DNA of 39,215 nucleotides. Origin: a virus. Under the pieces are notes generated by a model. That model made no database searches and was not told the origin of the DNA. It was given only the letters and a program-made list of their open reading frames with translations. Of this stretch, positions 1 to 39,215 are shown piece after piece; position 1 is the first letter of the stretch; every line of letters starts with the position of its first letter. The translations under genes and the position numbers were made by a program. The stretch covers positions 1 through 39,215 of the IMG/VR virus record IMGVR_UViG_3300043773_000327; one strand, given 5' to 3'.

Positions 1-127
1 GACATTGTTGCACGTGACCTCTCTGAGGTTATGGCACCACTGCCAGCAGTAAACTGCTCTGCAGCAAATGCAGTTAATGACCGCGCACGTAACTTCGCTG
101 ACAAGCGCACACGTATTGCGTCAAATT
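1..127. repeat. terminal direct repeat, copy 1 (circular overlap)
   Basis: These 127 bases are identical to the last 127 bases of the window (39089..39215). The portal reading frame continues through the join without a break, so the repeat shows that the molecule or its assembly is circular. A length of exactly 127 matches a common maximum assembler k-mer, so the duplication is more likely an assembly overlap than a physical terminal repeat. The non-redundant genome is 39,088 bases. Confidence 0.93.
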
Positions 128-1614
128 ATTTTGCACACTCAGACCTTGCTGTACAAATGTACCAAGGTGCTGACTGGTACATCACATATGGTTTCCTCCC
201 GTTCGTAATTGAACTGGATGAAGACGCAAAACTGCCACGTATCCGCATAGAAAACCCAGTGGGTGCTTACCCAGAGTTTGACCGCTATGGACGTTGTGTG
301 GCATTTGCAAAGCGATACTCAATGACGCTAGGCGAACTCGTATCTCAGTTCCCTGACTATGAAGCCCAGTTGCTCGGACGCCGAGGCTACGACCAGGACT
401 TAACTGCTCAGGTTGAGATGATTCGTTACTACGACAAAGACCAATCAATCATCTATGTGCCAAACAAGGAAAACCTTGTCTTGTCACAGGCAGCCAATCC
501 AATTGGCAAGATGCATATTGTCGTTGCTCGTAAGCCATCTATTGATTCAGAACTACGTGGACAGTTTGACGACATCCTCGGTATTCAATTGCTTCGCAAT
601 CGTTTTGCTCTACTTGCAATGGAAGCAGCAGAGAAGTCTGTACAGGCACCAATCGTATTGCCTACAGATGTTAACGAACTGCAACTTGGTGGAGATGCTG
701 TTATCTACACATCTAACCCAGCAGGTGTACGCCGCGTAGAACTAAACATTCCACAGGGCGCGTTCCAGCAATCAGCATTGCTTAACTCTGAACTTCGCGT
801 CGGTGCTCGTTATCCTGAGGGACGTACAGGAAACATTGATGCATCAATCGTTACGGGACAAGGTGTACAGGCTCTTATGGGAGCCTTTGATACTCAGGTC
901 AAGTCTGCACAAGCAATCTTTGCTGCAGCACTACGTGATGTAATCAGCATTTGTTTTGAGGTTGATGAACTTATCTTCCCTAATGAAAAGACAATTCGCG
1001 GAGTAGATTCGGGTTCACCTTATGAAATTACTTATAAGCCTTCTAAGGACATCAAGAAAGATTATTCTGCCGATGTTCGTTACGGTATGCTTGCTGGTCT
1101 TAATCCCGCGCAAGGTCTTATCTTTATGCTACAAGCATTGGGAGGCGGATTAATCTCCAAGGATATGGCGATGCGTGAACTTCCATTCACCGTCAACGTA
1201 ACTCAGGAATTAGAAAAGATTGAAATTGAGAATATGCGTACAGCACTTCTCGGTTCACTAACTGCTATGACACAAGCGATTCCACAAATGGCTGCAACAG
1301 GTGGGGACCCATCAGGACTCGTAAACAAAATTGCTGCGGTTATCAAGGCACGTCAAAAGGGAGTTTCCCTTGAGGACGCAATTGAAGCCACATTTGCTCC
1401 GCAGCAACCAGTTCCTCCTGCTGGGGAAGCATCTATGGTTGAGCAACCGTCCCCTGCTCCCGCCGCTGCTCCAGCAGGAGGCGCTCTTCCCCCAGAGTTA
1501 ATGGGTGGAGCACCAGCAGAACAAGGACCACCAAGCATTCAGAGTCTTCTCTCATCACTGAGTGGTGCAACAGGACAAGGTTCTGCATCAGTAAGAACAA
1601 CAACTCGTCGATAG
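1..1614 (+). CDS. portal protein (C-terminal 537 residues; gene continues from 38915)
   Basis: This is the larger part of a 595-residue portal protein whose first residues are encoded at the other end of the window. The portal is the dodecameric ring at the capsid vertex through which DNA is packaged and ejected. The call rests on position directly behind the large terminase, on length, and on an SPP1/N4-like character: the body contains the stretch GADWYITYGFLPFVIE and a long helical middle. The last 110 residues are Pro/Ala/Gly-rich and probably disordered. An in-frame ATG at 31 exists but is internal, because the frame is open from base 1 and joins the 58 codons at 38915..39088. A 14-base gap separates it from the next gene. 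Confidence 0.82.
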   Translation, partial: DIVARDLSEVMAPLPAVNCSAANAVNDRARNFADKRTRIASNYFAHSDLAVQMYQGADWYITYGFLPFVIELDEDAKLPRIRIENPVGAYPEFDRYGRCVAFAKRYSMTLGELVSQFPDYEAQLLGRRGYDQDLTAQVEMIRYYDKDQSIIYVPNKENLVLSQAANPIGKMHIVVARKPSIDSELRGQFDDILGIQLLRNRFALLAMEAAEKSVQAPIVLPTDVNELQLGGDAVIYTSNPAGVRRVELNIPQGAFQQSALLNSELRVGARYPEGRTGNIDASIVTGQGVQALMGAFDTQVKSAQAIFAAALRDVISICFEVDELIFPNEKTIRGVDSGSPYEITYKPSKDIKKDYSADVRYGMLAGLNPAQGLIFMLQALGGGLISKDMAMRELPFTVNVTQELEKIEIENMRTALLGSLTAMTQAIPQMAATGGDPSGLVNKIAAVIKARQKGVSLEDAIEATFAPQQPVPPAGEASMVEQPSPAPAAAPAGGALPPELMGGAPAEQGPPSIQSLLSSLSGATGQGSASVRTTTRR

Positions 1615-1628
1615 CAAAGTAGGGGACA

Positions 1629-2171
1629 ATGACAACAATCATAGGCGTACAAACCGCAGATGGTTGCGTCATAGCAAGTGATTCACGAGTTGCTGAGGGT
1701 GGCAAAGTTTATACACATCCTCAGATGGTTAAGGCGGTTGAACGTGGAAGTTACATTATTGGTGGTGCTGGTGACTATCGTGCTCTACAAGTGGTACTCC
1801 ACGGGTGGTCGCCTCCATTAGTAAGTGCGAAAGCAAAACAAAATCTTTATGAGTTTGTCATTAACAAGGTTGCACCTTCGTTAAAGGCAACACTGACTGA
1901 GGCTGGTATTGAATTTACCAAGTCATCAGATAACGACGATAAGTTTGAACTACAACTTATTATCGGTATCAATGGAAACATATTTGAGATTGACAGCGAC
2001 TTTGCAGTTGCTATGAATGACAACGGACTTTACGCAATTGGTTCTGGTGGAGAGTACGCACTAGGTGCGCTACACGCAGGAGCAACAGTATTAGAAGCAA
2101 TGCGAATTGCAGCAGTTAACAACAATGGAACTTCGGCTCCATTTCATATTCTTGAACAAGAAACTAAGTAG
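1629..2171 (+). CDS. proteasome beta / HslV-like Ntn-hydrolase (threonine peptidase)
   Basis: A 180-residue protein, close to the length of HslV. After removal of the initiator Met it begins TTIIGV, as mature proteasome beta and HslV subunits do, which exposes a Thr nucleophile. Counting from that Thr, Asp17 lies in the ASD motif and a Lys at 34 fits the catalytic Lys33 with one inserted residue. GAGD (residues 46-49) and GSGG (138-141, the proteasome Ser129 loop) are also present. The usual late Asp166 appears as Asn in an NNNGTS stretch. What is seen is a complete Ntn fold signature with near-complete active-site residues. Position between the portal and internal virion proteins suggests a capsid-maturation protease, but this is inference. 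GGGGACA precedes the ATG. It could be catalytically weak or serve another peptidase role. Confidence 0.8.
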   Translation: MTTIIGVQTADGCVIASDSRVAEGGKVYTHPQMVKAVERGSYIIGGAGDYRALQVVLHGWSPPLVSAKAKQNLYEFVINKVAPSLKATLTEAGIEFTKSSDNDDKFELQLIIGINGNIFEIDSDFAVAMNDNGLYAIGSGGEYALGALHAGATVLEAMRIAAVNNNGTSAPFHILEQETK

Positions 2172-2179
2172 GAGGAACA

Positions 2180-2632
2180 ATGGCAGGGAATCAAAACAGT
2201 GGCGGTATGCGCCCGACTGCTCCGCAGAATAATCCTGCGAACATTTCTGCTACAGGTGGCAACGGACAATCAGGTCGTGACTACACAGGTTTCGCATACG
2301 GAGAAAACAAAGCACTAGCAGAACAACAGTCAGGTGCATCTATGGCTAAAGCGCCATCACCTACTGCAGCAGCACCATCAATGGCAAGCAACCTTCCGCA
2401 AGTAACACCTATCACTGCTCCAACAGAACGACCAACGGAGCCAGTAACGACAGGTATTGCTATGGGACCAGGAGCAGGACCAGAAGCACTCACACTTCCT
2501 GGTGCAGGTGACTCGAACGAAGATAGGCAGCGTCTGCTTTCTTATCTTCCAGCACTCGAAGTCGCAGCACAAAGCCCTAACTCCTCGCAAGCCTTCCGCA
2601 ATTATGTGAGAGTTTTAAGGGCGAGTCTTTAA
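2180..2632 (+). CDS. Pro/Ala/Gly-rich structural protein of unknown function
   Basis: 150 residues. The first 110 are low in complexity (Pro, Ala, Gly, Thr, Asn) and probably disordered. The last 35 look helical (NEDRQRLLSYLPALEVAAQS). An excellent ribosome site (GGAGG) lies just before the ATG, and the stop overlaps the next start (TAATG). It lies between the Ntn hydrolase and the giant internal protein, so a minor head component, scaffold-like helper or protease substrate is plausible. No family is recognised. Confidence 0.7.
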   Translation: MAGNQNSGGMRPTAPQNNPANISATGGNGQSGRDYTGFAYGENKALAEQQSGASMAKAPSPTAAAPSMASNLPQVTPITAPTERPTEPVTTGIAMGPGAGPEALTLPGAGDSNEDRQRLLSYLPALEVAAQSPNSSQAFRNYVRVLRASL

Positions 2633-5600
2633 TGAGCGATAGAGAAGCAGCGCAAAAAGCGTATGCCGATAGCCTGAAGAAGGCTAACCCTTCAGCATTT
2701 GACACCATTGGTGCATTCAATAAGTATTACAACGCGGATAAGAAGCCGCAGTCGTTGGCTTTGCCATTGGATTTTGGCAAGTCTGTTCCACCGACTAACC
2801 GCGCAGAAGCAGTTGCTTCCTACAATGCTAAGAACATTCAGAAGCCAAAGGCTCCAGATGAGCCAGGGTTCTTCGGTAAAATCTTTGCAGGTATGGAAAC
2901 TGCCTATAACTTTTCAGCACAGGTTGTATCTTTTGGTCTAACTCTTCCAGACCAGAACAACCCAATCTTTAATAGTGGTTTCAATCTTGATGGAGTCAAG
3001 AAGGCTTGGGATGAATCACGTAACATCTCGCCTGGACAAGCATTGGTTAGCCAAGTATTTGGCAAGCCAGTCAATATGTTCAATGATGCATTCTCTGACG
3101 TAGCAAGTTTTGCTACAGGTGGTGCAATCAACACTGACCGCTTTGTACAAGACCACATCTTGTTTGCGGCAAATGACTTTGATATTTTTGACAAGAACCA
3201 ACGCAAGAAGGCATTCGGTGACCAGGCAACTGGACGCGTATCTTCTTGGGCTACAGATGTAGTTGCTCGCTTTGTTATTGACCCAACCATCTTTGTTGGT
3301 AAGGGAGTCAAGGCATACAAGGGAATCTCTACTGCAGTATCTGGAACTAAAGAACTCCGTGCAATTCTTGCTGGAGAACAAACTGGTTTTAAGGCTAATA
3401 AGGTAAAGGCTACATTCGAGTCATTCCTTGAGAACACCGACAATATGAACGAGGCAGACCTCTTCCGCGTGAAGGCTATCCGCGAGTCGTCTAACCCTGC
3501 ATCATTGTCAAGCCTACTTGCAGATGCTAATAAGGAAACTGACAAGTTACTTCGTCACCAATTTAAGACAGATATCATCTTGTCTGCACAGGGTGATGCT
3601 GCATCATTTGAGCGTCTTGCAAAGACTAGCGAGATTCTTGCTGCCAAAGTTGGCGTACTTCGTGATGAAGTATCAAGCGTCAAGTTTATGGGCGAAGGTG
3701 TTGATAAGGCAACAGGTAATCTAACCCTTGACCTTGTTAATAACGGAACTGATGTTGAAGCAGCAAACATTCTCATCAAGCAATACGATGATGAACTTGC
3801 AAACATTCACAAGCAACTAGCAGCCGAGGCTGTGCTTGACCCTAATGTTGTGCCAAAGGTAGATGCACTTTCTGGATTCCGTCAGAAGTTTGCTAACAGC
3901 CAGAGTTTTATTGATATTCGTGCTACCGCTAAGGGAGAGTACACATCAGCCGTTGCACCTTGGGGTGCTCGCGTTCTGACTGGATTCTTCTACAAGCGTC
4001 CTAAGGGATGGATTGACTTCAATGACAATCAGTCCCTACAGACTATTGACAATATGTTGTCTCGTGTACGTGGAGTATCTGACAAGCAGGTTGCAAACTA
4101 CACTGCGAAGATTAACGATATCCAGAGACAACTTAAGGCTGGAATCAAAGATGACCCTAGAACTGGTCTAAAGGCTGCAGATGTAAAGCGCACATTAGAA
4201 GTACAATTAAAGGGATTCCAAGATGACTTGGCTAAGGCTCGATTTACTGTTGAGCGCAAGAATGAATTGTTCTCTCGCTACACAAATGCACTAGATGTCA
4301 ATGACCGTGCTCGTGTATACCAGGAGATTGAAGCAGAAGTCTTTAGCACTGTTGCTCGTCAGTATGGATTTAGTGATGATGCTGTAAAGAAGGCTTGGGC
4401 TACATTCCAAGATGGACGTGTGAGCGCACAGAATCTTATCCGCGAACGCGTATATACAGGTTCAACTGCTGCCGCAGAGAAGGCAAGCCTCAAGCCAATC
4501 CTTGGTGCTGAGAATGGAATGTATGTCATTCCTGCTCCACTTATGGAAACACAGTTAGCGCATCAGTTGCCTACTCTTGACATTGAGCAGATGTACCGCT
4601 CACTAAATAAGTACACACGTGGTGCACGTATCGACAAGGGTGGACGTGTCTATAAGACAACTAGCCGTGGTCGTGAAGTTGGAAACGAACTGATTGATGG
4701 ACTAGATTCATTGATTAAGTTTGAGGTTCTTGCTCGCGTTGGTTACCCAGTGCGTAACGTAACTGAAGGCTTGATGCGTACTATCGCTGTTGCAGGTCCT
4801 ATGGCTATCATCAAGGCGGCATCTGTCGGTTCTGGAAACCTTGTTGCTAATCGCTTTGTAGGTTCAACATTCCACGATGTATTTAAGTGGAGCAACACAG
4901 TTAAGTTACAAACAAAGCGTGCAGAACTTGTGTCACAAAGAACCATATCAAACAATGTCGACTTGATTGACCAGCAGATTGCAGACATCGATAAGATGCT
5001 TACCAATCCAGGCAAGGTTAAAGACAAGTACGGTATGGGTCTTAACCAGGTTGATGGCGTTACCTACCAGGATGCGCTAGGCGCAACTCCTGAGGATGCT
5101 GCTGCTATCTCTGAGCGATTCATTAAGAATGCTGCAAAGATTATGGATGATACATTCGTAGAATCCCATAGAAACCTTAGCCGTGCTTATGAAACAACTG
5201 GCGATTTCGTAACAATCACAGGAGATAATCCTGCTTGGGTTGCTGGATATGAGCGTGTAATTAACCGCCAACTCCGCAACTCAGAGATTACATCCCAGTT
5301 GCTTGCTGGCAAGAGTGTTGACGAAGTAGAAAAATTCCTACTTACCACTAATAAGGGTCGCAACATTATGCGAAACCTTGGTATGGGTCGTGAGGCTCGT
5401 GACATTGTTGAGGCTAACGTACTTAACATTGACAGCCTATTCCCTCGTGGAACAGAAGGCTTGAAGGAGATTGCTGCTAAGCGTCGTATCACTTCTGCTG
5501 ATATTGAGCAGTTCTTTGGTACTGGCACAGCAGGACGACCACCTATCAACGGTGCTCAGATTGGCGCAGCCAATGGAACAAGTGCTATTGCTAACGCATT

Positions 5601-7299
5601 CAGTGGAGTCCTTGAAGGATTCTATAAGTATGCTGGCGAAGTACCTGAATCAGCGTTGGTTCGTAACCCATTATTCGTAGACCTTTACCGCAAGCGTGTA
5701 GAGGCATCTATCCGTAATGCTATTGAGACATATCCAGGAGAGACAATTCCTCCTGCATACCTCAACAAACTAGAGAACTCAGCCCGCCAATGGGCACGTT
5801 CAGAGATGCGCCGTACTCTATATGACACATCAGAGCGCGTGGATTCAGCAACAACTCTTAAGTACATCTTCCCATTCTTTGGTGCATTCGCTGACGTTGC
5901 ACAAAAGTGGGGTCGCATTCTTGTAGATGACCCAGGTAAGTTACGTGTTCTTGAGACTACATACAACTCTCCTGACCGTATGGGTATCACTGAGAAGCGC
6001 GATGGCAAGACATACATCAACATTCCTGGTGAATGGGCTAAGCGTATGAAGTTGGGTGACCGCCCACTATCAGTACCTAAGGCATCACTTAACCTTATCT
6101 TCCAAGGTGGAGCGTGGTGGAACCCAGGTGCTGGTTGGTTCGTACAGTACGGTGCATCATCATTACTGAAGCAAGTTCCTCAGTTAGAGCAGAATGCGAT
6201 AATGAAGGAAATCCTTCCTTACGGTCCTGATGGTACTGGTTGGAAAGACCTTGTTCTACAGAGTGCTGGACTTCGTAAGTTATTTGCAATGGGTGATGAA
6301 GCAGACCCAATGCGTGCTAACTTGACAGTTACTATTGCTATGGAAGAGAACCACAAGTACGATGTTGGACTTCGTGATACTCCTCCAACTACAAAAGAGA
6401 TTAACGATAGGGCTTTAGGCATCCTTGCTATGGAGGCTGCAAGCCGATTCATTCTTCCTTTTGCTACAAATACTAAGTCTCCTTATCAGTTCTACATTGA
6501 TGAGTACCAGAAGATGCGTCAAGAAGATGCAGCAAATGCAACAGAGAACTTCTGGAAGAAGTATGGAGATGATTACTACGTCTTCACAACTAGCCGTTCT
6601 AAGAACAACACTGGTGTTAACGCATCTATCGAGGCTGATAAGCGTGCTACACAACTCAGCGACCTTATCGCTAAGAACCCTGAGTACGGTTGGTTCGTAG
6701 TTGGAGATGCTAACAATGGTGAGTTCTCACCTACTGTTTACAAGAAGCAACGCGAACTAGCGGTAGCCCCTGGTAGTACAACTAAGTTCCGTGAGTCTCA
6801 AGACCCTTACCAGGCTATTGCAGAGACACAAACATCAAAGGGTTGGATTACCTACAACAAGGGTATTGACTTCATTGAGTCGCAGCGCATTGCTCGTGGA
6901 CTTAAGAGTCTTAACTCTAAGGGTGCAGAGGATTTGGCTGCTGCTAAGAAGCAGTTCATTGCTGAACTATCTGCAGAGAATCCTTCTTGGGGCGCAGAGC
7001 GTGGAAAGATTGACACTAATAAGGTTAACAACTTCCTAGCATTTGCCAAGGAAATGACTCTTGATAAGCGCACTGCTAACCGTCCTGATATCAAGGCTGT
7101 TGCAGATTACCTAGCAGGACGTGAATATATTCGTGGCTTACTTGCACAACGTGAAAGCCAATCGTTAGACAACACTGCAAACCTTGACCTCAAGGAAAAA
7201 TGGGACTCATTCATCGGTGACCTAATCGATGAGAATGTCACATTTAGCAGAGTTTACACACGCATACTTGAAAACGATGACCTTCGGAAAGGTTTCTAA
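2632..7299 (+). CDS. giant internal virion protein (1,555 aa), putative
   Basis: The largest gene, about 12% of the genome, translationally coupled to the previous gene and overlapping the next by one base. It has no signal peptide. It is mostly helical, with amphipathic or weakly hydrophobic segments such as near residues 700-730 (GPMAIIKAASVGSG) and around 1,080 (KYIFPFFGAFADV), and a long Lys/Glu-rich C-terminus. Short-tailed phages commonly carry one or more very long internal proteins near the portal that are ejected with the DNA and help it cross the envelope. Position and size support that role. No lytic transglycosylase, MuF or ADP-ribosyltransferase motif was recognised. The large-structural-protein call is firm; the ejection role is inferred. 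Confidence 0.68.
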   Translation: MSDREAAQKAYADSLKKANPSAFDTIGAFNKYYNADKKPQSLALPLDFGKSVPPTNRAEAVASYNAKNIQKPKAPDEPGFFGKIFAGMETAYNFSAQVVSFGLTLPDQNNPIFNSGFNLDGVKKAWDESRNISPGQALVSQVFGKPVNMFNDAFSDVASFATGGAINTDRFVQDHILFAANDFDIFDKNQRKKAFGDQATGRVSSWATDVVARFVIDPTIFVGKGVKAYKGISTAVSGTKELRAILAGEQTGFKANKVKATFESFLENTDNMNEADLFRVKAIRESSNPASLSSLLADANKETDKLLRHQFKTDIILSAQGDAASFERLAKTSEILAAKVGVLRDEVSSVKFMGEGVDKATGNLTLDLVNNGTDVEAANILIKQYDDELANIHKQLAAEAVLDPNVVPKVDALSGFRQKFANSQSFIDIRATAKGEYTSAVAPWGARVLTGFFYKRPKGWIDFNDNQSLQTIDNMLSRVRGVSDKQVANYTAKINDIQRQLKAGIKDDPRTGLKAADVKRTLEVQLKGFQDDLAKARFTVERKNELFSRYTNALDVNDRARVYQEIEAEVFSTVARQYGFSDDAVKKAWATFQDGRVSAQNLIRERVYTGSTAAAEKASLKPILGAENGMYVIPAPLMETQLAHQLPTLDIEQMYRSLNKYTRGARIDKGGRVYKTTSRGREVGNELIDGLDSLIKFEVLARVGYPVRNVTEGLMRTIAVAGPMAIIKAASVGSGNLVANRFVGSTFHDVFKWSNTVKLQTKRAELVSQRTISNNVDLIDQQIADIDKMLTNPGKVKDKYGMGLNQVDGVTYQDALGATPEDAAAISERFIKNAAKIMDDTFVESHRNLSRAYETTGDFVTITGDNPAWVAGYERVINRQLRNSEITSQLLAGKSVDEVEKFLLTTNKGRNIMRNLGMGREARDIVEANVLNIDSLFPRGTEGLKEIAAKRRITSADIEQFFGTGTAGRPPINGAQIGAANGTSAIANAFSGVLEGFYKYAGEVPESALVRNPLFVDLYRKRVEASIRNAIETYPGETIPPAYLNKLENSARQWARSEMRRTLYDTSERVDSATTLKYIFPFFGAFADVAQKWGRILVDDPGKLRVLETTYNSPDRMGITEKRDGKTYINIPGEWAKRMKLGDRPLSVPKASLNLIFQGGAWWNPGAGWFVQYGASSLLKQVPQLEQNAIMKEILPYGPDGTGWKDLVLQSAGLRKLFAMGDEADPMRANLTVTIAMEENHKYDVGLRDTPPTTKEINDRALGILAMEAASRFILPFATNTKSPYQFYIDEYQKMRQEDAANATENFWKKYGDDYYVFTTSRSKNNTGVNASIEADKRATQLSDLIAKNPEYGWFVVGDANNGEFSPTVYKKQRELAVAPGSTTKFRESQDPYQAIAETQTSKGWITYNKGIDFIESQRIARGLKSLNSKGAEDLAAAKKQFIAELSAENPSWGAERGKIDTNKVNNFLAFAKEMTLDKRTANRPDIKAVADYLAGREYIRGLLAQRESQSLDNTANLDLKEKWDSFIGDLIDENVTFSRVYTRILENDDLRKGF

Positions 7300-11476: not shown

Positions 11477-12430
11477 TTGGCTACAAACTACACATCGACA
11501 GACTCAGCGTCTCTCGGCGGAACAGCAGGTAGCGCAGGTCTAGTACAGAAGGCATACGATAAGTCTATCGAATTTGCCCTTCGCGACGAACCCCTAATTC
11601 GTGCAGTAGCAGACAAGCGCCCAGTATCCCCAACAAACAACGGAAACGTTGTTGTCCTACAGAAGTATGCAGACCTAGCGAACGCAACAACAGCGCTCAC
11701 AGAGTCTACAGACATCGACGGCGTTACAATCGGAACACCTACATCTGTGACTATCACAATGCAGGAGTTCGGTAACGCAACAACTAACACACGCGCTCTA
11801 CAGTTGTTCTCATTGAACTCAGTAGACCCAGACATCGTTACATTGATGGCTCGCAACCAGGCAGATTCAATCGACGCACTTGCTATGACAGCACTTCGCG
11901 GCGGTACAAACGTAATCTACTCAGGTTCAACAGCAACATCAACAGCAACAGTTACAGCAGCAGCAACATTGTCAACAGCGAACATCGCTAAGGCAGTTGC
12001 TAAGTTGCGTACAAACAAGGCTTCAGGTCGCCGTGGCAATGAGTTCTGGGCTGGAATCCACCCAGACGTAGCACACGACCTAATGCTTGAATCATCAGCA
12101 GCAGGTTGGGTAGTACCTAACGCATACGGTATCTCACAGGACCGTATCTGGGCTGGAGAAGTTGGTCGTTACAAGGGTGCTTACTTCGTAGAGTCACCAC
12201 GCCTATACGTAGCAACTGATGGTGCTGCATCTGCAAAGGTGTACCGCACAATCATCTGCGGACAGCAAGCACTTGCTGAGGCAGTGGCAGAAGAGCCACA
12301 CACAGTTATCGGTCCAGTAACCGACAAGTTGAACCGCTTCCGTCCAATCGGATGGTACGGCGTTCTAGGCTTCGCACGTTTCCGTGAAGAGGCTCTATAC
12401 CGCATTGAGTCAGGTTCATCAATCGCTTAG
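11477..12430 (+). CDS. major capsid protein (N4-gp56-like)
   Basis: 317 residues building the capsid shell. The pattern is that of the N4 gp56 major capsid family: an early FALRDEPLIRAVADKRPVS segment, then NNGNVVVLQKYADLANATT, then LTES followed by a beta-rich ITMQEFGNATTNTRAL, with the C-terminal half carrying IHPDVAHDLM and a glycine-containing beta region. Scaffold immediately upstream agrees. The start is TTG at 11477, chosen because a perfect AGGAGGT lies six bases before it and no ATG is suitably placed. A hairpin follows the stop. Confidence 0.85.
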   Translation: MATNYTSTDSASLGGTAGSAGLVQKAYDKSIEFALRDEPLIRAVADKRPVSPTNNGNVVVLQKYADLANATTALTESTDIDGVTIGTPTSVTITMQEFGNATTNTRALQLFSLNSVDPDIVTLMARNQADSIDALAMTALRGGTNVIYSGSTATSTATVTAAATLSTANIAKAVAKLRTNKASGRRGNEFWAGIHPDVAHDLMLESSAAGWVVPNAYGISQDRIWAGEVGRYKGAYFVESPRLYVATDGAASAKVYRTIICGQQALAEAVAEEPHTVIGPVTDKLNRFRPIGWYGVLGFARFREEALYRIESGSSIA

Positions 12431-26321: not shown

Positions 26322-26480
26322 ATGTTTAACTTTTTTAAGAAGCATAATGAAGACCACAATGATGTATGGGATGTACTAACTGATGTGACATTCACGGTTG
26401 CACTATTGCAAGAAGAAGTAGAAGTGTTACGTCAAGAAGTAGATTACTTAGTGGCTGAACTAGAAGACCTAGATGATTAA
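26322..26480 (+). CDS. 52-aa acidic coiled-coil protein, first early gene
   Basis: Starts MFNFFKKHNEDHNDVWDVLT and continues as a heptad-like acidic helix (LLQEEVEVLRQEVDYLVAEL) to the end. Its ribosome site is the one that can pair with the upstream hairpin loop. The last eight bases overlap the next ATG (ATGATTAA). Being first in the early transcript it may be a host-takeover or leader protein. No family is recognised. Confidence 0.65.
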   Translation: MFNFFKKHNEDHNDVWDVLTDVTFTVALLQEEVEVLRQEVDYLVAELEDLDD

Positions 26481-26661
26481 ACTAGATTCATATGAGTTAC
26501 CAGAGCACATTAGTTATAGTGCTTTCACTACTTTTCTCACTTGTGGGTATCAGTATTACCTTGGCAGACTACTCCAAGTTCCAGAAGAACCATCAGTCTG
26601 GTCAGCAGGAGGACGGGCTTTCCACTTAGCAGCAGAAACGTGGGACATTGAGAATGGCTAA
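26473..26661 (+). CDS. RecB/Cas4-like nuclease, N-terminal piece
   Basis: 62 residues matching the start of PD-(D/E)XK nucleases of the RecB/Cas4 group: ISYSAFTTFLTCGYQYYLGR with Cys24, the first iron-sulphur ligand, and GGRAFH ending in His51, the motif I His. It stops there. The rest of the family (acidic residues, Lys, QxxxY and three more Cys) is encoded separately at 26961..27569, after an intervening gene. The TAA overlaps the next ATG by eight bases. It could complement the second piece in trans or be a remnant. Confidence 0.7.
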   Translation: MIKLDSYELPEHISYSAFTTFLTCGYQYYLGRLLQVPEEPSVWSAGGRAFHLAAETWDIENG

Positions 26662-26977
26662 AGACGACGTGACTATCAAGCGACTTAAGACAGCACCCAA
26701 GAAGAAGAAGGCTACTAAGAAGGTTCCACCAAAACCAGAGTTCATCAATGTTAATGCTATGCAGTATGGCTACAACGCGTGGGTCAACGATGCACTTCGT
26801 GCAACTACTTTGTATGGTCAGCCAATACCTGAGGACTTAGAAGAGCGTGCTAAGTTCTTTCAGGACAAGTATGAGTACGCTGAAAGAAACAATAGAAGTC
26901 TTAAGGAACAAGTAGAGTTACTTAAATCAATCATCAATGATGCTATGACAAGGAGTTGCAGTGGCAGTTGTGAATAG
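26654..26977 (+). CDS. Lys-rich/coiled-coil protein inserted between nuclease halves
   Basis: 107 residues from ATG 26654, which overlaps the preceding stop (ATGGCTAA). The N-terminal 25 residues are very basic (KRLKTAPKKKKATKKV), then comes an aromatic region (NAMQYGYNAWVNDALRATTL) and a charged coiled coil (KFFQDKYEYAERNNRSLKEQ). It ends in CSGSC. No LAGLIDADG, HNH or GIY-YIG motif is visible, so it does not look like a homing endonuclease. It separates the two parts of the nuclease. It could be a DNA-binding partner of it. Confidence 0.6.
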   Translation: MAKDDVTIKRLKTAPKKKKATKKVPPKPEFINVNAMQYGYNAWVNDALRATTLYGQPIPEDLEERAKFFQDKYEYAERNNRSLKEQVELLKSIINDAMTRSCSGSCE

Positions 26978-27569
26978 TTACTGGCACAATGCCTGGCTCA
27001 AGGAGATTGACGGGCTTGACTTTTCCAAGGCACGAGTAGCAGGGCGAGCAACTAAGGCTAACCCTAATCGTGAAGACGGAACCTGGTGGTATGAGCAGGG
27101 GTCTATATGGACTGACGCTTACATCACTTGGCGTAAGAACAATCCTGACTGGAAAATCTGGACCACCCCACAGGGTGCAAAGGCTATTGAGTTAGAACTC
27201 AACCCCATCATTGCTGGTGTACCAGTGAAGATGTTCATTGACAGAATCTTTGAGGTCAACGGTAAACTTGTTATCGTCGACTTGAAGACTTCTCGCACAC
27301 GTCCAACCTCTGACTTACAACTAGGCTTCTACAAGGTAGGAGTCGAGATGATGTTAGGAGTGGAAGTCAATCTAGGAAACTACTGGATGTCTCGTGAATC
27401 GGGGACAGGAGAGATGATTGACCTAAGTAGATATACCAAGGACACACTTGAATACTTTGTTGATGGCTTTGACAAAGCACGAAAGGCTGGTATATTTCTA
27501 CCGAACCTACAATCGTGTAGTTTCTGTGGACTCACAGAACACTGCCAATTTACGAAGAAGGATAAATAA
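26961..27569 (+). CDS. RecB/Cas4-like PD-(D/E)XK nuclease, catalytic piece
   Basis: 202 residues, GTG start five bases after AAGGAG. It carries FIDRIF (Asp94), IVDLKTS (Asp107, Lys109), QLGFY (Gln120-x3-Tyr124) and the C-terminal Cys cluster CSFCGLTEHC (Cys186, 189, 195). With Cys24 of the upstream piece these would make the usual four-Cys iron-sulphur site. Related phage exonucleases work in recombination and replication. The gene lacks the motif I His, which is in 26473..26661, so activity probably needs both pieces. It shares a one-base stop/start overlap with the next gene. Confidence 0.8.
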   Translation: MAVVNSYWHNAWLKEIDGLDFSKARVAGRATKANPNREDGTWWYEQGSIWTDAYITWRKNNPDWKIWTTPQGAKAIELELNPIIAGVPVKMFIDRIFEVNGKLVIVDLKTSRTRPTSDLQLGFYKVGVEMMLGVEVNLGNYWMSRESGTGEMIDLSRYTKDTLEYFVDGFDKARKAGIFLPNLQSCSFCGLTEHCQFTKKDK

Positions 27570-28056: not shown

Positions 28057-28842
28057 ATGAGAACGTTAATAAGAAGTGTTGGACGTTCCGACATTGGCGG
28101 TGAACCTTTACCCGCAGTATTCAAAACATTTAATGTCAACAAAATTGTTTGCCGACGCTCAGAAGTGTCGATGTTTGCAGGTGTTCCAGGTGTGGGAAAG
28201 TCCACTCTGGCACTGGCTTTAGCCCTTCGTATGAGGGTTCCAACTCTTTACATCTCAGCAGATACCAACTCGCACACTATGGCTATGCGCCTGGCATCAA
28301 TGATTAGCGGTAAGAATCAGACAGATGTTGAAGCGTTGATGGAACGAGATGTTGATTGGACTAAGGCTGTACTACAGAAGTCATCACACATTGTATGGTC
28401 ATTTGAATCCAGTCCGACTCTGTTAGATATCAACGAAGAGGTTGAAGCATTCGAGGAACTATGGGGCTGTCCACCTGAAGCAATCTTCATTGACAACTTG
28501 ATGGACATTGCAACAGATGGTGGTGAAGAGTTTGCATCTATGCGTGCAGTGATGAAGGAACTCAAGTACCTAGCACGTCTTACTAATGCAGCAATTGTTG
28601 TACTGCACCATACATCCGAAGCAGTGCCAGGAAATCCAACTCAGCCACGCTCTGCATTGCAGGGTAAGGTCGCGCAGATTCCTGCACTTATCTGTACACT
28701 AGGTGTAGTGGGAACCTCAATGGCTGTCTCACCTGTAAAGAACAGATACGGAAGGGCTGATGCTAACGCTAACCTAATGGCTTGGCTTGCTTTCAATCCT
28801 GAGTATATGTTTATGGACGATATCCCAGAGAATGGTGGATGA
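28057..28842 (+). CDS. DnaB-like RecA-fold helicase / ATPase
   Basis: 261 residues, a stand-alone RecA-fold ATPase. Walker A is GVPGVGKST (residues 42-50), Walker B AIFIDNL (142-148, Asp146) and VVLHHTSE (181-188) is the motif III-type strand, followed by SALQGKVAQIPA. It lacks the DnaB N-terminal collar, which is common in phage RepA/DnaB-type helicases. Upstream of the primase zinc and TOPRIM genes, it is most likely the replicative helicase. Its stop overlaps the next start (ATGA). Confidence 0.8.
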   Translation: MRTLIRSVGRSDIGGEPLPAVFKTFNVNKIVCRRSEVSMFAGVPGVGKSTLALALALRMRVPTLYISADTNSHTMAMRLASMISGKNQTDVEALMERDVDWTKAVLQKSSHIVWSFESSPTLLDINEEVEAFEELWGCPPEAIFIDNLMDIATDGGEEFASMRAVMKELKYLARLTNAAIVVLHHTSEAVPGNPTQPRSALQGKVAQIPALICTLGVVGTSMAVSPVKNRYGRADANANLMAWLAFNPEYMFMDDIPENGG

Positions 28843-32941: not shown

Positions 32942-33369
32942 TAGTACCAACCTCTGCGCTGGCTGTGTGACCACGCCTTGCACGGTGTCCCGTAGCGGTG
33001 GGAGATGTACTTGTAGGCGTTGAGTATCTGTATTGCTGGGTCTTTACTCGTCTCCTTCAATACCTGTCCGATACCGAATGCGCTACTACCCTGTTGGTTC
33101 TTTGCTAAATGGTCGAAGCGACTCTCCTTCATAAACAATGAGTAGGCACAACGTCGCTGAGTTCTATCCCAGTTCCACCCTGCCTTAGCAAATCTCATTG
33201 CCATTATCTTGTTGTCCCGCTTCTGTTCCATTGTCGCCTTGGTCTGTGGCTCAGGCTTTGGCTTGGTATGGTTGAGGTTTACCCCGACCTGCACCTGTAC
33301 ATCATTACCGAATGGGGCAAACAAGATTGCCGTGACTAGGATTGAGACTGCTATTAGATGTCTTTTCAT
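32941..33369 (-). CDS. exported lytic-transglycosylase-like protein
   Basis: 142 residues. Residues 1-20 are a signal/anchor (MKRHLIAVSILVTAILFAPF), followed by a Pro/Lys-rich spacer. CAYSLFMKESRF carries the probable catalytic Glu82, and NQQGSSAFGIGQ is the SLT-type Gly-rich strand. Cys74 and Cys130 could form a disulphide. The tail AWSHSQRRGWY resembles resuscitation-factor and related lysozyme-like domains. It would cut peptidoglycan glycan strands outside the membrane. It is not in the lysis cassette but between regulatory genes, so an entry, superinfection or wall-remodelling role is possible. ATGA overlap with WhiB. Confidence 0.72.
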   Translation of the reverse strand: MKRHLIAVSILVTAILFAPFGNDVQVQVGVNLNHTKPKPEPQTKATMEQKRDNKIMAMRFAKAGWNWDRTQRRCAYSLFMKESRFDHLAKNQQGSSAFGIGQVLKETSKDPAIQILNAYKYISHRYGTPCKAWSHSQRRGWY

Positions 33370-33719
33370 CCGTAAAGTTTAGCAAGTATCTTGCGAACTT
33401 CGCGTCTGTGCCTCTGTTCTGCGGTCACAATCTTCTCGTTGCTTCTGTGTTTCAGTAAACGATAACGTTCTGATACCAACATCCCGCCCCAGATAGTGCC
33501 CCATCCACCCCAGAACTGCACGTTCTCAGGCTCTAGCCCCTCTTCTAAGCACTTATCTTTGACTGGGCAAGTGCGACATAGGGTAATCGCTTCAACGCTA
33601 CGCAAGACTTGGAGTGCTCGTTCGTCAGGATAGATTGAGTTCTCGTAGTGCCACAAGTCAGGGTCAGGGTGTCGGTTACAGTTTCCCTCTGCGTGCCAAC
33701 GCTTGTCCTTTAGTGTCAT
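33366..33719 (-). CDS. whiB: WhiB-family iron-sulphur regulator
   Basis: 117 residues with the full Wbl signature: Cys14, then Cys48-x2-Cys51-x5-Cys57 for a 4Fe-4S cluster, followed by GGWGTIWGG (residues 71-79; the family G(V/I)WGG turn) and a basic C-terminus (RHRREVRKILAKL) for DNA contact. WhiB proteins bind sigma region 4 and are confined to actinobacteria and their phages, so this is the strongest host indicator. It may reprogramme host promoters or exclude other phages. Coupled on both sides (TAATG upstream, ATGA downstream). Confidence 0.9.
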   Translation of the reverse strand: MTLKDKRWHAEGNCNRHPDPDLWHYENSIYPDERALQVLRSVEAITLCRTCPVKDKCLEEGLEPENVQFWGGWGTIWGGMLVSERYRLLKHRSNEKIVTAEQRHRREVRKILAKLYG

Positions 33720-37037: not shown

Positions 37038-38906
37038 ATGGGACGCAAGCCAGGGATTCAGAACATCTCCAAGAAGGAAGCCCAGGAGAAAATGCTCCTG
37101 CTCCTAGAGCAAGGGGCGACCATTACAGCCGCTATGGCAGCCGTAGGTCGTAACGATGTCACCTTCCGCCAATGGTCGATGCAGGACCCTGACTTCAAGG
37201 AACGAGCCGACAAAGCCCGCCTGGCGGGTAAAGGGGTCAAGGCTGACCTGAAGGATTTGAAGGATATCTCCTTCCCCGACTTCTGCGAACAGTTCTTAGA
37301 TTCTAAGTTGTTCCCCCACCAGTTGAACTGGTTAGACCTGATGGAGGGTGTACCTCCCCGCTGGCAGCCCGCTGGTATGACATACGAGCCAGGTGAACCT
37401 GACCGTGTACTTATCAACGTACCGCCTGAGCACGCCAAGTCGACAACTATCACGACTAACTATGTGACCTACAAGATTGTCACTGACCCGAACACGAGAG
37501 TCATCATCGTCTCTAAGACTCAGGGTATGGCTAGAAAGTTCCTTGGTGCTATCAAGACAAGACTTTCACACCCAGCCTATATGAAACTCCAGACCGCCTT
37601 TGGTCCTAATGGAGGCTACAAGGCAGATGCTACCCAGTGGTCGGCAGATATGATTTACCTGGGTACAGGACGCGATTCTGGCGAGAAGGACCCTACGGTC
37701 CAAGCCTTGGGTCTTGGTTCTCAGATTTACGGTGCTCGTGCTGACTTGATTATCGTCGACGACGCGGTTATGGGAGCAAACGCCCACGAGTGGGAAAAGC
37801 AGATGGAATGGCTTCAGAAGGAAGTTATCACCCGTCTTGGTCGACACGGTAAGTTAATTATCGTTGGAACCAGAGTGGCACCAGTTGACTTATACAAGAT
37901 GCTACGCGACCCAGGGCAATGGTCAGGTGGGGTTTCCCCTTTCACCTACTGTGCAATGCCAGCGGTTTTAGAATTTGACGAAGACCCTAAGCAGTGGAAA
38001 ACCTTGTGGGCAGAAACTGACCAACAAGAAAACTCCAAAGACGACCCACTGCCAAATGGAAATTATCCAAAGTGGGACGGACCTTCTTTGTTTAAGAGAC
38101 GCTCTCAGGTGTCTCCATCTGTGTGGGCTATGGTCTACCAGCAAGAGGATGTGCAAGAGGATTCAATCTTTGCCCCTTCTTGTGTAGCAGGTTCTGTTAA
38201 CGGAATGCGTAAACGCGGTCCATTAAAACCTGGAGTACCTGGACATCCTCGTATCGTCGAAGGTGCACACACCATCATCGGACTTGACCCTGCTATGGCA
38301 GGTGCCACTGGTGCAGTAGTTGCAACTTACAATCGCGCCGATGGCAAGATTTATGTTTTGGATTGCGTCAATATGACCGAGCCAACTCCACAAAAGATTC
38401 AAGACCTCATCGAAGAATGGGTTCAGAAGTATCGCCCTCACGAACTGCGTATTGAAATCAACGCACACCAGAAGGCATATGCACTCGATGACAACCTACG
38501 CCAGTACTTGGCACAGTGGGGATGTCAACTGAACTCACACTTTACTGGTAAGAATAAATGGGACACATCATTTGGTGTAGCATCAATGGCTTCGCTATTT
38601 GGCAATACACGAGATGGACGTTTCCAAGATAACAACTTGATTGAACTACCAAGCAACGAAGGCTCTGAGGGTCTTAAGACTTTGGTACAAGAGTTGATTA
38701 CTTGGAAGCCTGATACTAGAAACCCTACAGACTGCGTAATGGCACTGTGGTTTGCAGTCATTCGCATCCGCGAATTGATGCAAGCAGGTTCACGCTTACA
38801 GTCCTACACGCAAAATCGTTGGGCTACGAGAGCACAGAAATCAAACAGAGTCACCGTGAATCTTCAAGAGGCAATCGCTGACCAGTGGTCAGAACAATAC
38901 GGATAA
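37038..38906 (+). CDS. terL: terminase large subunit with N-terminal HTH
   Basis: 622 residues from ATG 37038, which has AAGGA upstream; an in-frame ATG at 37026 adds four residues but lacks a ribosome site. Residues ~25-55 (LEQGATITAAMAAVGRNDVT, then FRQW) form a helix-turn-helix like that of small terminases. The ATPase follows: INVPPEHAKSTT (deviant Walker A, ~126-137), LIIVDDAV (Walker B, ~237-244), then the GTR coupling motif (277-279). The nuclease domain starts at IGLDPAMAG (Asp417). It pumps DNA into the procapsid and cuts it. No separate small terminase gene was found, so the HTH may serve in DNA recognition. Directly upstream of the portal. Confidence 0.9.
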   Translation: MGRKPGIQNISKKEAQEKMLLLLEQGATITAAMAAVGRNDVTFRQWSMQDPDFKERADKARLAGKGVKADLKDLKDISFPDFCEQFLDSKLFPHQLNWLDLMEGVPPRWQPAGMTYEPGEPDRVLINVPPEHAKSTTITTNYVTYKIVTDPNTRVIIVSKTQGMARKFLGAIKTRLSHPAYMKLQTAFGPNGGYKADATQWSADMIYLGTGRDSGEKDPTVQALGLGSQIYGARADLIIVDDAVMGANAHEWEKQMEWLQKEVITRLGRHGKLIIVGTRVAPVDLYKMLRDPGQWSGGVSPFTYCAMPAVLEFDEDPKQWKTLWAETDQQENSKDDPLPNGNYPKWDGPSLFKRRSQVSPSVWAMVYQQEDVQEDSIFAPSCVAGSVNGMRKRGPLKPGVPGHPRIVEGAHTIIGLDPAMAGATGAVVATYNRADGKIYVLDCVNMTEPTPQKIQDLIEEWVQKYRPHELRIEINAHQKAYALDDNLRQYLAQWGCQLNSHFTGKNKWDTSFGVASMASLFGNTRDGRFQDNNLIELPSNEGSEGLKTLVQELITWKPDTRNPTDCVMALWFAVIRIRELMQAGSRLQSYTQNRWATRAQKSNRVTVNLQEAIADQWSEQYG

Positions 38907-38914
38907 GGATAACA

Positions 38915-39215
38915 ATGGCATTATCAAAGCAGCAGGTGTTTGCGAGAGTTGAATCTCTTCGCCACCTCAACGGAGAACGCGACCAGCGCAACCTTGACGT
39001 ACTCGCAGTTCGCCAGGGAAAGATTGCTGACGTATATCCTGATTTTTTCCCAGAGGGCATCGACGCTAACGTAGTTGCTAACTTTATCGACATTGTTGCA
39101 CGTGACCTCTCTGAGGTTATGGCACCACTGCCAGCAGTAAACTGCTCTGCAGCAAATGCAGTTAATGACCGCGCACGTAACTTCGCTGACAAGCGCACAC
39201 GTATTGCGTCAAATT
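38915..39215 (+). CDS. portal protein, N-terminal part (continues at position 1)
   Basis: Begins with ATG at 38915 after AAGGATAAC, eight bases past the terL stop. The first residues, MALSKQQVFARVESLRHLNG, are followed by ERDQRNLDVLAVRQGKIADV, an N-terminal region typical of portal proteins. The frame runs off the end of the window and is continued by 1..1614; codon 59 of the gene is position 1. Residues 59 onwards in this interval duplicate 1..127. The complete gene encodes 595 residues. Confidence 0.85.
   Translation, partial: MALSKQQVFARVESLRHLNGERDQRNLDVLAVRQGKIADVYPDFFPEGIDANVVANFIDIVARDLSEVMAPLPAVNCSAANAVNDRARNFADKRTRIASN
39089..39215. repeat. terminal direct repeat, copy 2 (circular overlap)
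   Basis: Identical over 127 bases to positions 1..127. See the first copy. Treat one copy as redundant when counting genes or length. Confidence 0.93.

Follow-up and report, generated by a model that had tools for sequence, protein, structure and literature searches.

The window, by which we mean the whole 39,215-bp stretch of viral DNA that was analyzed, encodes a 180-aa peptidase of the proteasome-like Ntn-hydrolase family with an invariant active site, and its gene occupies a fixed slot behind the portal gene. In sister phages whose head gene families are the same, this slot may hold a divergent allele or an unrelated gene of about 83 aa. Based on the logic that a single-gene cassette which is swapped in this way should be accessory, we interpret the product as an accessory peptidase and not as an obligatory head-maturation protease. 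Our preferred reading, to which we give an even chance, is that of a swappable, phage-specific peptidase which acts late in infection on host or unfolded proteins or on protein-level defence. Proteasome homologues of phages have already been described (Fuchs, Alva and Lupas 2021, PMC8665760), but until now without an informative gene context or function, and that study had no actinobacterial phage with AAH. What is new here is a large clade among actinophages, the repeated occurrence of the gene next to head genes and its exchange at a fixed slot.

The window has a 127-bp direct terminal repeat, and since the record was opened inside the portal gene, this gene is present in two parts, one at the start of the window and its 5' part at the other end (38885-39215), with the reading frame continuing across. 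The portal protein is homologous to the portals of the Streptomyces Beephvirinae, and the presence of a WhiB-like regulator makes an actinobacterial host likely. The features that bear on the peptidase, based on open reading frames that were called mechanically, are collected in Table 1.

Table 1. Features of the window that bear on the peptidase and its surroundings.
Feature	Position	Strand	Evidence or remark
Portal protein, 3' part	1..1614	+	phrog_104, 3e-23
Portal-protease gap, 14 bp	1615..1628	+	purine-rich ribosome-binding-like sequence (GTAGGGGACA-ATG)
Proteasome-like (Ntn hydrolase) threonine peptidase, 180 aa	1629..2171	+	Pfam, PHROG, PDB profile, AF2, alignments
Conserved protein, 150 aa, function not assigned, phrog_8200	2180..2632	+	fixed right-hand border of the exchange slot
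Giant protein, 1555 aa, phrog_10618	2632..7299	+	putative internal/ejection-type virion protein
Probable scaffold, 173 aa	10917..11438	+	phrog_7813; weak DUF4355/Gp46 scaffold similarity, below cut-off
Major capsid protein	11477..12430	+	phrog_1357, 3.5e-74; Pfam Phage_capsid_3
AAA-type ORF, only one seen	28057-28842		AAA_25/DnaB match
WhiB-like regulator	33366..33719	-	Pfam Whib, 37.7 bits vs cut-off 23.6

The first-pass annotation, made from the sequence alone, had called the product a proteasome/HslV-like threonine peptidase of HslV-like length and had proposed a profile search against Ntn-hydrolase families. This search placed the protein inside the Ntn fold, with a score of 28.3 bits for Pfam PF00227 (Proteasome; cut-off 22.4) over residues 2-152, and further comparisons confirmed the assignment. 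These included the following: PF00227 was matched by 31 of 38 diverse homologues at E <= 0.001, phrog_1040 ('peptidase HslV family') was matched at E 3e-29, and a profile of 38 homologues run against the PDB found chains of HslV (6e-10) and of BPH, the beta-proteobacterial proteasome homologue (1.5e-9). An AF2 single-chain model was obtained with a pLDDT of 91.9 and a pTM of 0.87, and in a fold search with this model the best match was BPH (TM 0.76), followed by HslV (TM about 0.68), Anbu and proteasome beta subunits, the leading PDB matches all being BPH, HslV, Anbu or proteasome subunits. Helices H1-H4 of the alpha-beta-beta-alpha fold, which make the ring contacts, were all predicted, H2 with high confidence at residues 73-91; the loop after helix 2 is acidic (median net charge -3), and an insertion of the connectase type is absent. 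The protein scored well below the curated HslV equivalog cut-offs (33.5 versus 137 bits for NF003964 and 32.1 versus 157.75 bits for TIGR03692), and we thus regard it as HslV-like but have not filed it as HslV. Its gene starts with ATG and has an open frame of 182 codons for 180 aa; one or two sense codons at most separate the ATG from the in-frame stop before it, and a propeptide could not be accommodated in the window. At the ORF calling used, nothing precedes the start in 230 of 252 homologues. Removal of the Met would expose Thr1.

The conservation of the active site was examined across these 252 distinct complete homologues. The start signature of Thr, Asp17 and Lys33 and the GSGG loop that had been noted at first pass correspond to Thr2, Asp18 and Lys35 of the window protein, which together with Gly48 are the equivalents of mature Thr1, Asp17, Lys33 and the oxyanion Gly47, and to residues 138-141. 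All four catalytic residues and the loop glycines Gly138 and Gly140 were identical in 252/252 sequences, and the signature is therefore not a matter of chance. Since the N-terminus had served as a search pattern in some of the scans behind this set, the count was repeated on 91 proteases that were fetched through the neighbouring portal only. The equivalents of Thr1, Asp17, Lys33 and Gly47 were kept in 91/91 of these, for which the pairwise identity has a median of 34%. Conservation of 99% or more was reached at only 12 of the 180 positions, the four catalytic residues included. A chance signature or a dead gene was excluded by this invariance, and the pattern is what selection on the catalytic chemistry would look like while the remainder of the protein drifts. 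Neither of the two findings that had been named as grounds for abandoning the assignment, a place outside the Ntn fold or the loss of Thr2, Asp18 or Lys35 in close homologues, was made. It had also been suggested that Asn in place of the late Asp was worth testing; the column in question (Asn165 in the window) holds Asp in 132, Asn in 98, Thr in 15 and Ser in 7 of the 252 homologues, and Asn is accordingly a common natural variant and not diagnostic. The serine column of the GSGG loop varies as well (Ser 190, Thr 54, Ala 6, Asn 2). A dN/dS of about 0.38 was obtained for the protease; the value suffers from saturation and was given no weight.

Several known proteins resemble the window protein in part. 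The annotated HslV-like genes of phAPEC8, Pumpernickel and DSL-LC01 belong to the same profile family (phrog_1040) and likewise encode small Thr-type proteins of tailed phages, but their products are 28-36% identical to the window protein and the genes lie in accessory regions, not behind the portal. BPH (5ovs/5ovu), the best fold match, shares with it the lack of a propeptide and an acidic loop after H1/H2, but the two are only 17-22% identical, and BPH is a cellular heptameric double ring whereas the phage protein is seen as a single-chain model only. HslV (ClpQ) is alike in length, Thr start, GSGG loop and fold, and differs in that the equivalog scores are far below cut-off, no HslU was found among the window proteins scanned, and the window protein stands apart from HslV in the tree. 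BPH has no known unfoldase partner, and AAH and PPH are group-I proteasome-like proteins found in phages for which no dedicated AAA+ partner is known; PPH, however, has about 140 aa and lacks helix H2 (PMC8665760), while the 180-aa window protein has H2 predicted. Putatively AAH-like plasmid and phage sequences from Sinorhizobium, Streptomyces and Paraburkholderia formed a separate group together with three phages (100/100 support) at 25-28% identity to the window protein. In the tree the window clade, the Planktophila phages, clade C and Pumpernickel were apart from this AAH-like group and from HslV/phAPEC8, although the branches are long and support is moderate. One proteasome homologue on a Sinorhizobium americanum plasmid (L566:4001-4546), annotated as a hypothetical protein, is surrounded by genes of nitrogen fixation (nifQ, rpoN, nifS). 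A cellular origin in actinobacterial genomes was considered and set aside, in that a genome scan gave one locus only; the patterns were narrow, and absence from cells is not proven by it. That locus (L564, JAURLY010000091.1) is labelled as a gammaproteobacterial MAG and has a phosphoesterase, an HslV-like peptidase and whiB arranged as in actinophages; it is probably a misbinned phage contig.

The gene had been described at first pass as encoded next to the portal, and this position proved to be fixed in its own lineage, the ~39-kb actinophages that include the cultured Planktophila phages E7/F5, but not in its more distant relatives. The matches listed in the protease search included 78 IMG/VR relatives at 72-92% identity, which have the portal upstream and, in nearly all cases, phrog_8200 downstream; the collections are metagenomic and the listed matches lean toward close relatives. 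With distant relatives added, 210 protease loci from phages of the small type were counted, and in 205 of them the portal was immediately upstream. Many of these loci are re-fetched contigs, so that the counts are not independent. The five exceptions were three loci with a spurious ORF in between, one with no upstream gene at a contig end, and Pumpernickel. The portal-protease gap was 14-15 bp in 248 of the 294 loci counted. Two records, OX376640 and OX376641 (L002; assembly LanE43-AprF5), which are unannotated and carry the database name 'Caudovirales sp. ct2KA10', have a protease 55% identical to that of the window in the same place behind the portal. By their assembly name they are identified as the Planktophila phages LanE43AprE7/F5 that were cultured on Ca. 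Planktophila LanE-43 (PMC10202952), and with two cultured carriers the role of the gene is directly testable.

A survey of whether homologues always sit beside the portal had also been proposed, and the answer is that they do not. In large actinophages of the DSL-LC01 type the peptidase gene is found in accessory regions, sometimes next to whiB (about 54 loci among the matches listed), in Microbacterium phage Pumpernickel it lies beside ThyX and tRNAs, and in phAPEC8 among PhoH and methyltransferase genes, in all three cases away from the portal. There is, in addition, a second lineage, comprising about 26 of 80 clade-C loci among the matches listed, in which the peptidase gene has a metallophosphoesterase gene on one side and, on the other, a portal-scaffold-capsid block of another kind (portal phrog_64, capsid phrog_1357). 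When searched by its portal, this lineage had the peptidase nearby in 38 loci, while it was not seen in 37, some of which are on contigs too short for a decision.

Presence and absence in the window's own lineage were assessed by searching with the portal instead of the protease. There were 264 distinct portals with sufficient sequence behind them; 189 were followed by the protease, 31 by an unrelated gene of ~83 aa in the exact slot, 44 by neither and none by both. The 44 loci with neither include Streptomyces Beephvirinae (Zeigle, Immanuel3), the portals of which are 41-44% identical to that of the window and the overall gene order of which is alike. A further 29 genomes were available in two pieces each, and 10 of them had the 83-aa gene; no protease of this kind was found anywhere in the 30-41 kb read of those 10, and their portal, phrog_8200, scaffold and capsid families are the same as those of protease-bearing phages. 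In 27 near-complete genomes the portal, phrog_8200 and capsid families were common to both types (the capsid family in 27/27), and the scaffold family, whose gene is immediately 5' of the capsid gene and which occurs in phages with and without the protease, was found in all but one. Changes between protease and 83-aa gene numbered about six on the portal tree, at least four of them forced by supported branches. These phages of lake actinobacteria amount to a natural on/off experiment, in which sisters swap the gene for the 83-aa gene or for divergent alleles.

The 83-aa gene (L369:5078-5326 and 32 further distinct copies) occurs in several divergent forms, which share a basic N-terminus, an acidic C-terminus and a helical-looking core (...AGF...A...YP.W...). 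Some proteases are followed by a companion gene of 75-111 aa (L144:4679-4930 and relatives, and the Planktophila phages E7/F5), which was never found with the 83-aa gene. Neither small gene had a Pfam match, and their PHROG matches were at best weak, with none above threshold for the companion gene. A search with PADLOC gave no defence-gene match for the peptidase or for either of the small slot genes, and the idea that the peptidase is a known defence gene was dropped. Two alternative early-gene modules, one with genes of 202/123 aa and the other with genes of 334/259/146/151 aa, seemed to be mutually exclusive in the 27 near-complete genomes; the 83-aa gene was seen with only one of them and the protease with both.

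The proteases in the slot themselves fall into five classes that are less than 50% identical to each other, and these classes together with the other slot states required 30 changes on the portal tree, compared with a mean of 153 after shuffling. The median identity of the proteases was 37% where that of the portals was 77%, and for some pairs the order was reversed, e.g. 87% for the proteases versus 70% for the portals, as exchange would predict. A single conserved ortholog that trails the portal was ruled out by the difference in median identity and by the five exchanging classes. Taken together, the sequences are best explained by exchange of the slot gene through recombination, either for divergent alleles or for the unrelated ~83-aa gene. 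Protease class was also associated with the class of the giant protein, which varies strongly among relatives: within portal clusters the association was 364, compared with a permutation mean of 108 and maximum of 202. The two genes are near neighbours, and linkage suffices to account for this.

The head proteases of tailed phages (S14, S49, U35/S78 and T4 gp21 types) are of another fold and catalytic type and are needed for head maturation. The window-type gene resembles theirs in lying next to the portal, but close relatives that share its head gene families do not have it, and the suggestion made at first pass that it encodes a capsid-maturation protease was not borne out. The gene is encoded in the portal-capsid interval, as a head protease would be, but it does not always accompany its head genes, given that 31 + 44 of the 264 portals are without it, that Streptomyces cousins lack it, and that very different alleles exchange before similar heads. 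After the survey by portal, an obligatory head protease was accordingly given up as the preferred reading, and no literature on HslV in capsid maturation was found. There is still a minor chance that the protein serves as a maturation protease for head or ejection proteins where it is present, in which case it would get into the procapsid together with portal or scaffold, where it would trim the scaffold, the portal or the giant protein (1.4-1.9 thousand residues), the protease-less sisters having dispensed with trimming. Such a role is consistent with the conserved 14-15 bp spacing directly behind the portal and with the occurrence of the gene beside a different portal-scaffold-capsid block in a second lineage, as a pure accessory gene could sit anywhere. 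It would also fit the co-variation of protease class and giant-protein class beyond portal cluster, and among the window proteins scanned with Pfam/PHROG profiles no other protease family was found. What argues against it is that in the 10 genomes the portal, scaffold and capsid families are the same although the protease is missing, that the cultured Beephvirinae with their related portals do without the gene, that a single giant-protein class can be accompanied by any of several protease classes or by no protease at all, and that many relatives carry the peptidase far from head genes. The core capsid family, moreover, has forms of 317 and ~400 aa irrespective of the protease. In favour of a head role, on the other hand, the 83-aa protein could supply the same function by other means where the protease is lacking. 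The fuller proposal holds that two different actinophage lineages took up a proteasome-fold Thr peptidase next to the portal, that it works inside or on the procapsid and processes the ends of portal, scaffold or ejection proteins, and that it is optional in some sisters. This strikes us as slightly less probable again; if true, maturation of heads or ejection proteins would be served by a protease whose fold is not known to have such a role.

A specific modifying enzyme, i.e., a ligase or transpeptidase like the archaeal connectase, or a highly selective protease for one partner, is a somewhat more doubtful candidate than either of these. A monomeric ligase that has the same active site does belong to the proteasome-like family (PMC8665760), and outside the catalytic core the portal-fetched alleles have diverged as those of a partner-specific enzyme would. 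Against this, the ring-contact helices H1-H4 were all predicted without a connectase-type insertion, and the top folds were those of the double-ring peptidases BPH and HslV. Many actinobacteria possess a 20S proteasome, and a phage protein could conceivably mix into the rings of that proteasome or of an HslV-like peptidase, or compete for their regulators. Such a modulator would suit a phage that carries WhiB and infects actinobacteria, as its cultured relatives do (PMC10202952), but we consider it highly improbable, in that there would be no call for a purely inhibitory mimic to keep its active site invariant, and the nearest folds, BPH and HslV, are rings without alpha subunits.

The accessory peptidase that we favour would be catalytically competent, as predicted from its residues, and specific to phages, and would belong to group I of the proteasome-like proteins, the HslV/BPH-like branch. 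The most likely assembly is a ring or double ring of subunits that encloses the active sites, and the gene, a single-gene cassette in the portal operon between the portal and phrog_8200, is presumably expressed late together with the portal. Scans of phage proteins, which covered part of the window ORFs, turned up no HslU-type unfoldase, and this, together with an acidic loop as in BPH, suggests that peptides and unfolded or already loosened proteins are what it most likely cleaves. The peptidase would then act on host proteins or on protein-level defence during late infection.

Two further observations concern other genes of these phages. The longer form of the capsid protein, about 400 aa, has an insertion near window residue 255 (e.g. 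in G001, G003 and G011), and the two forms occur independently of the protease. In the window, an exonuclease gene (phrog_69/phrog_1870) at 26473-27569 is apparently split into parts of 62 aa and 202 aa with a separate ORF of 109 aa between them, and in L002 the two parts adjoin.
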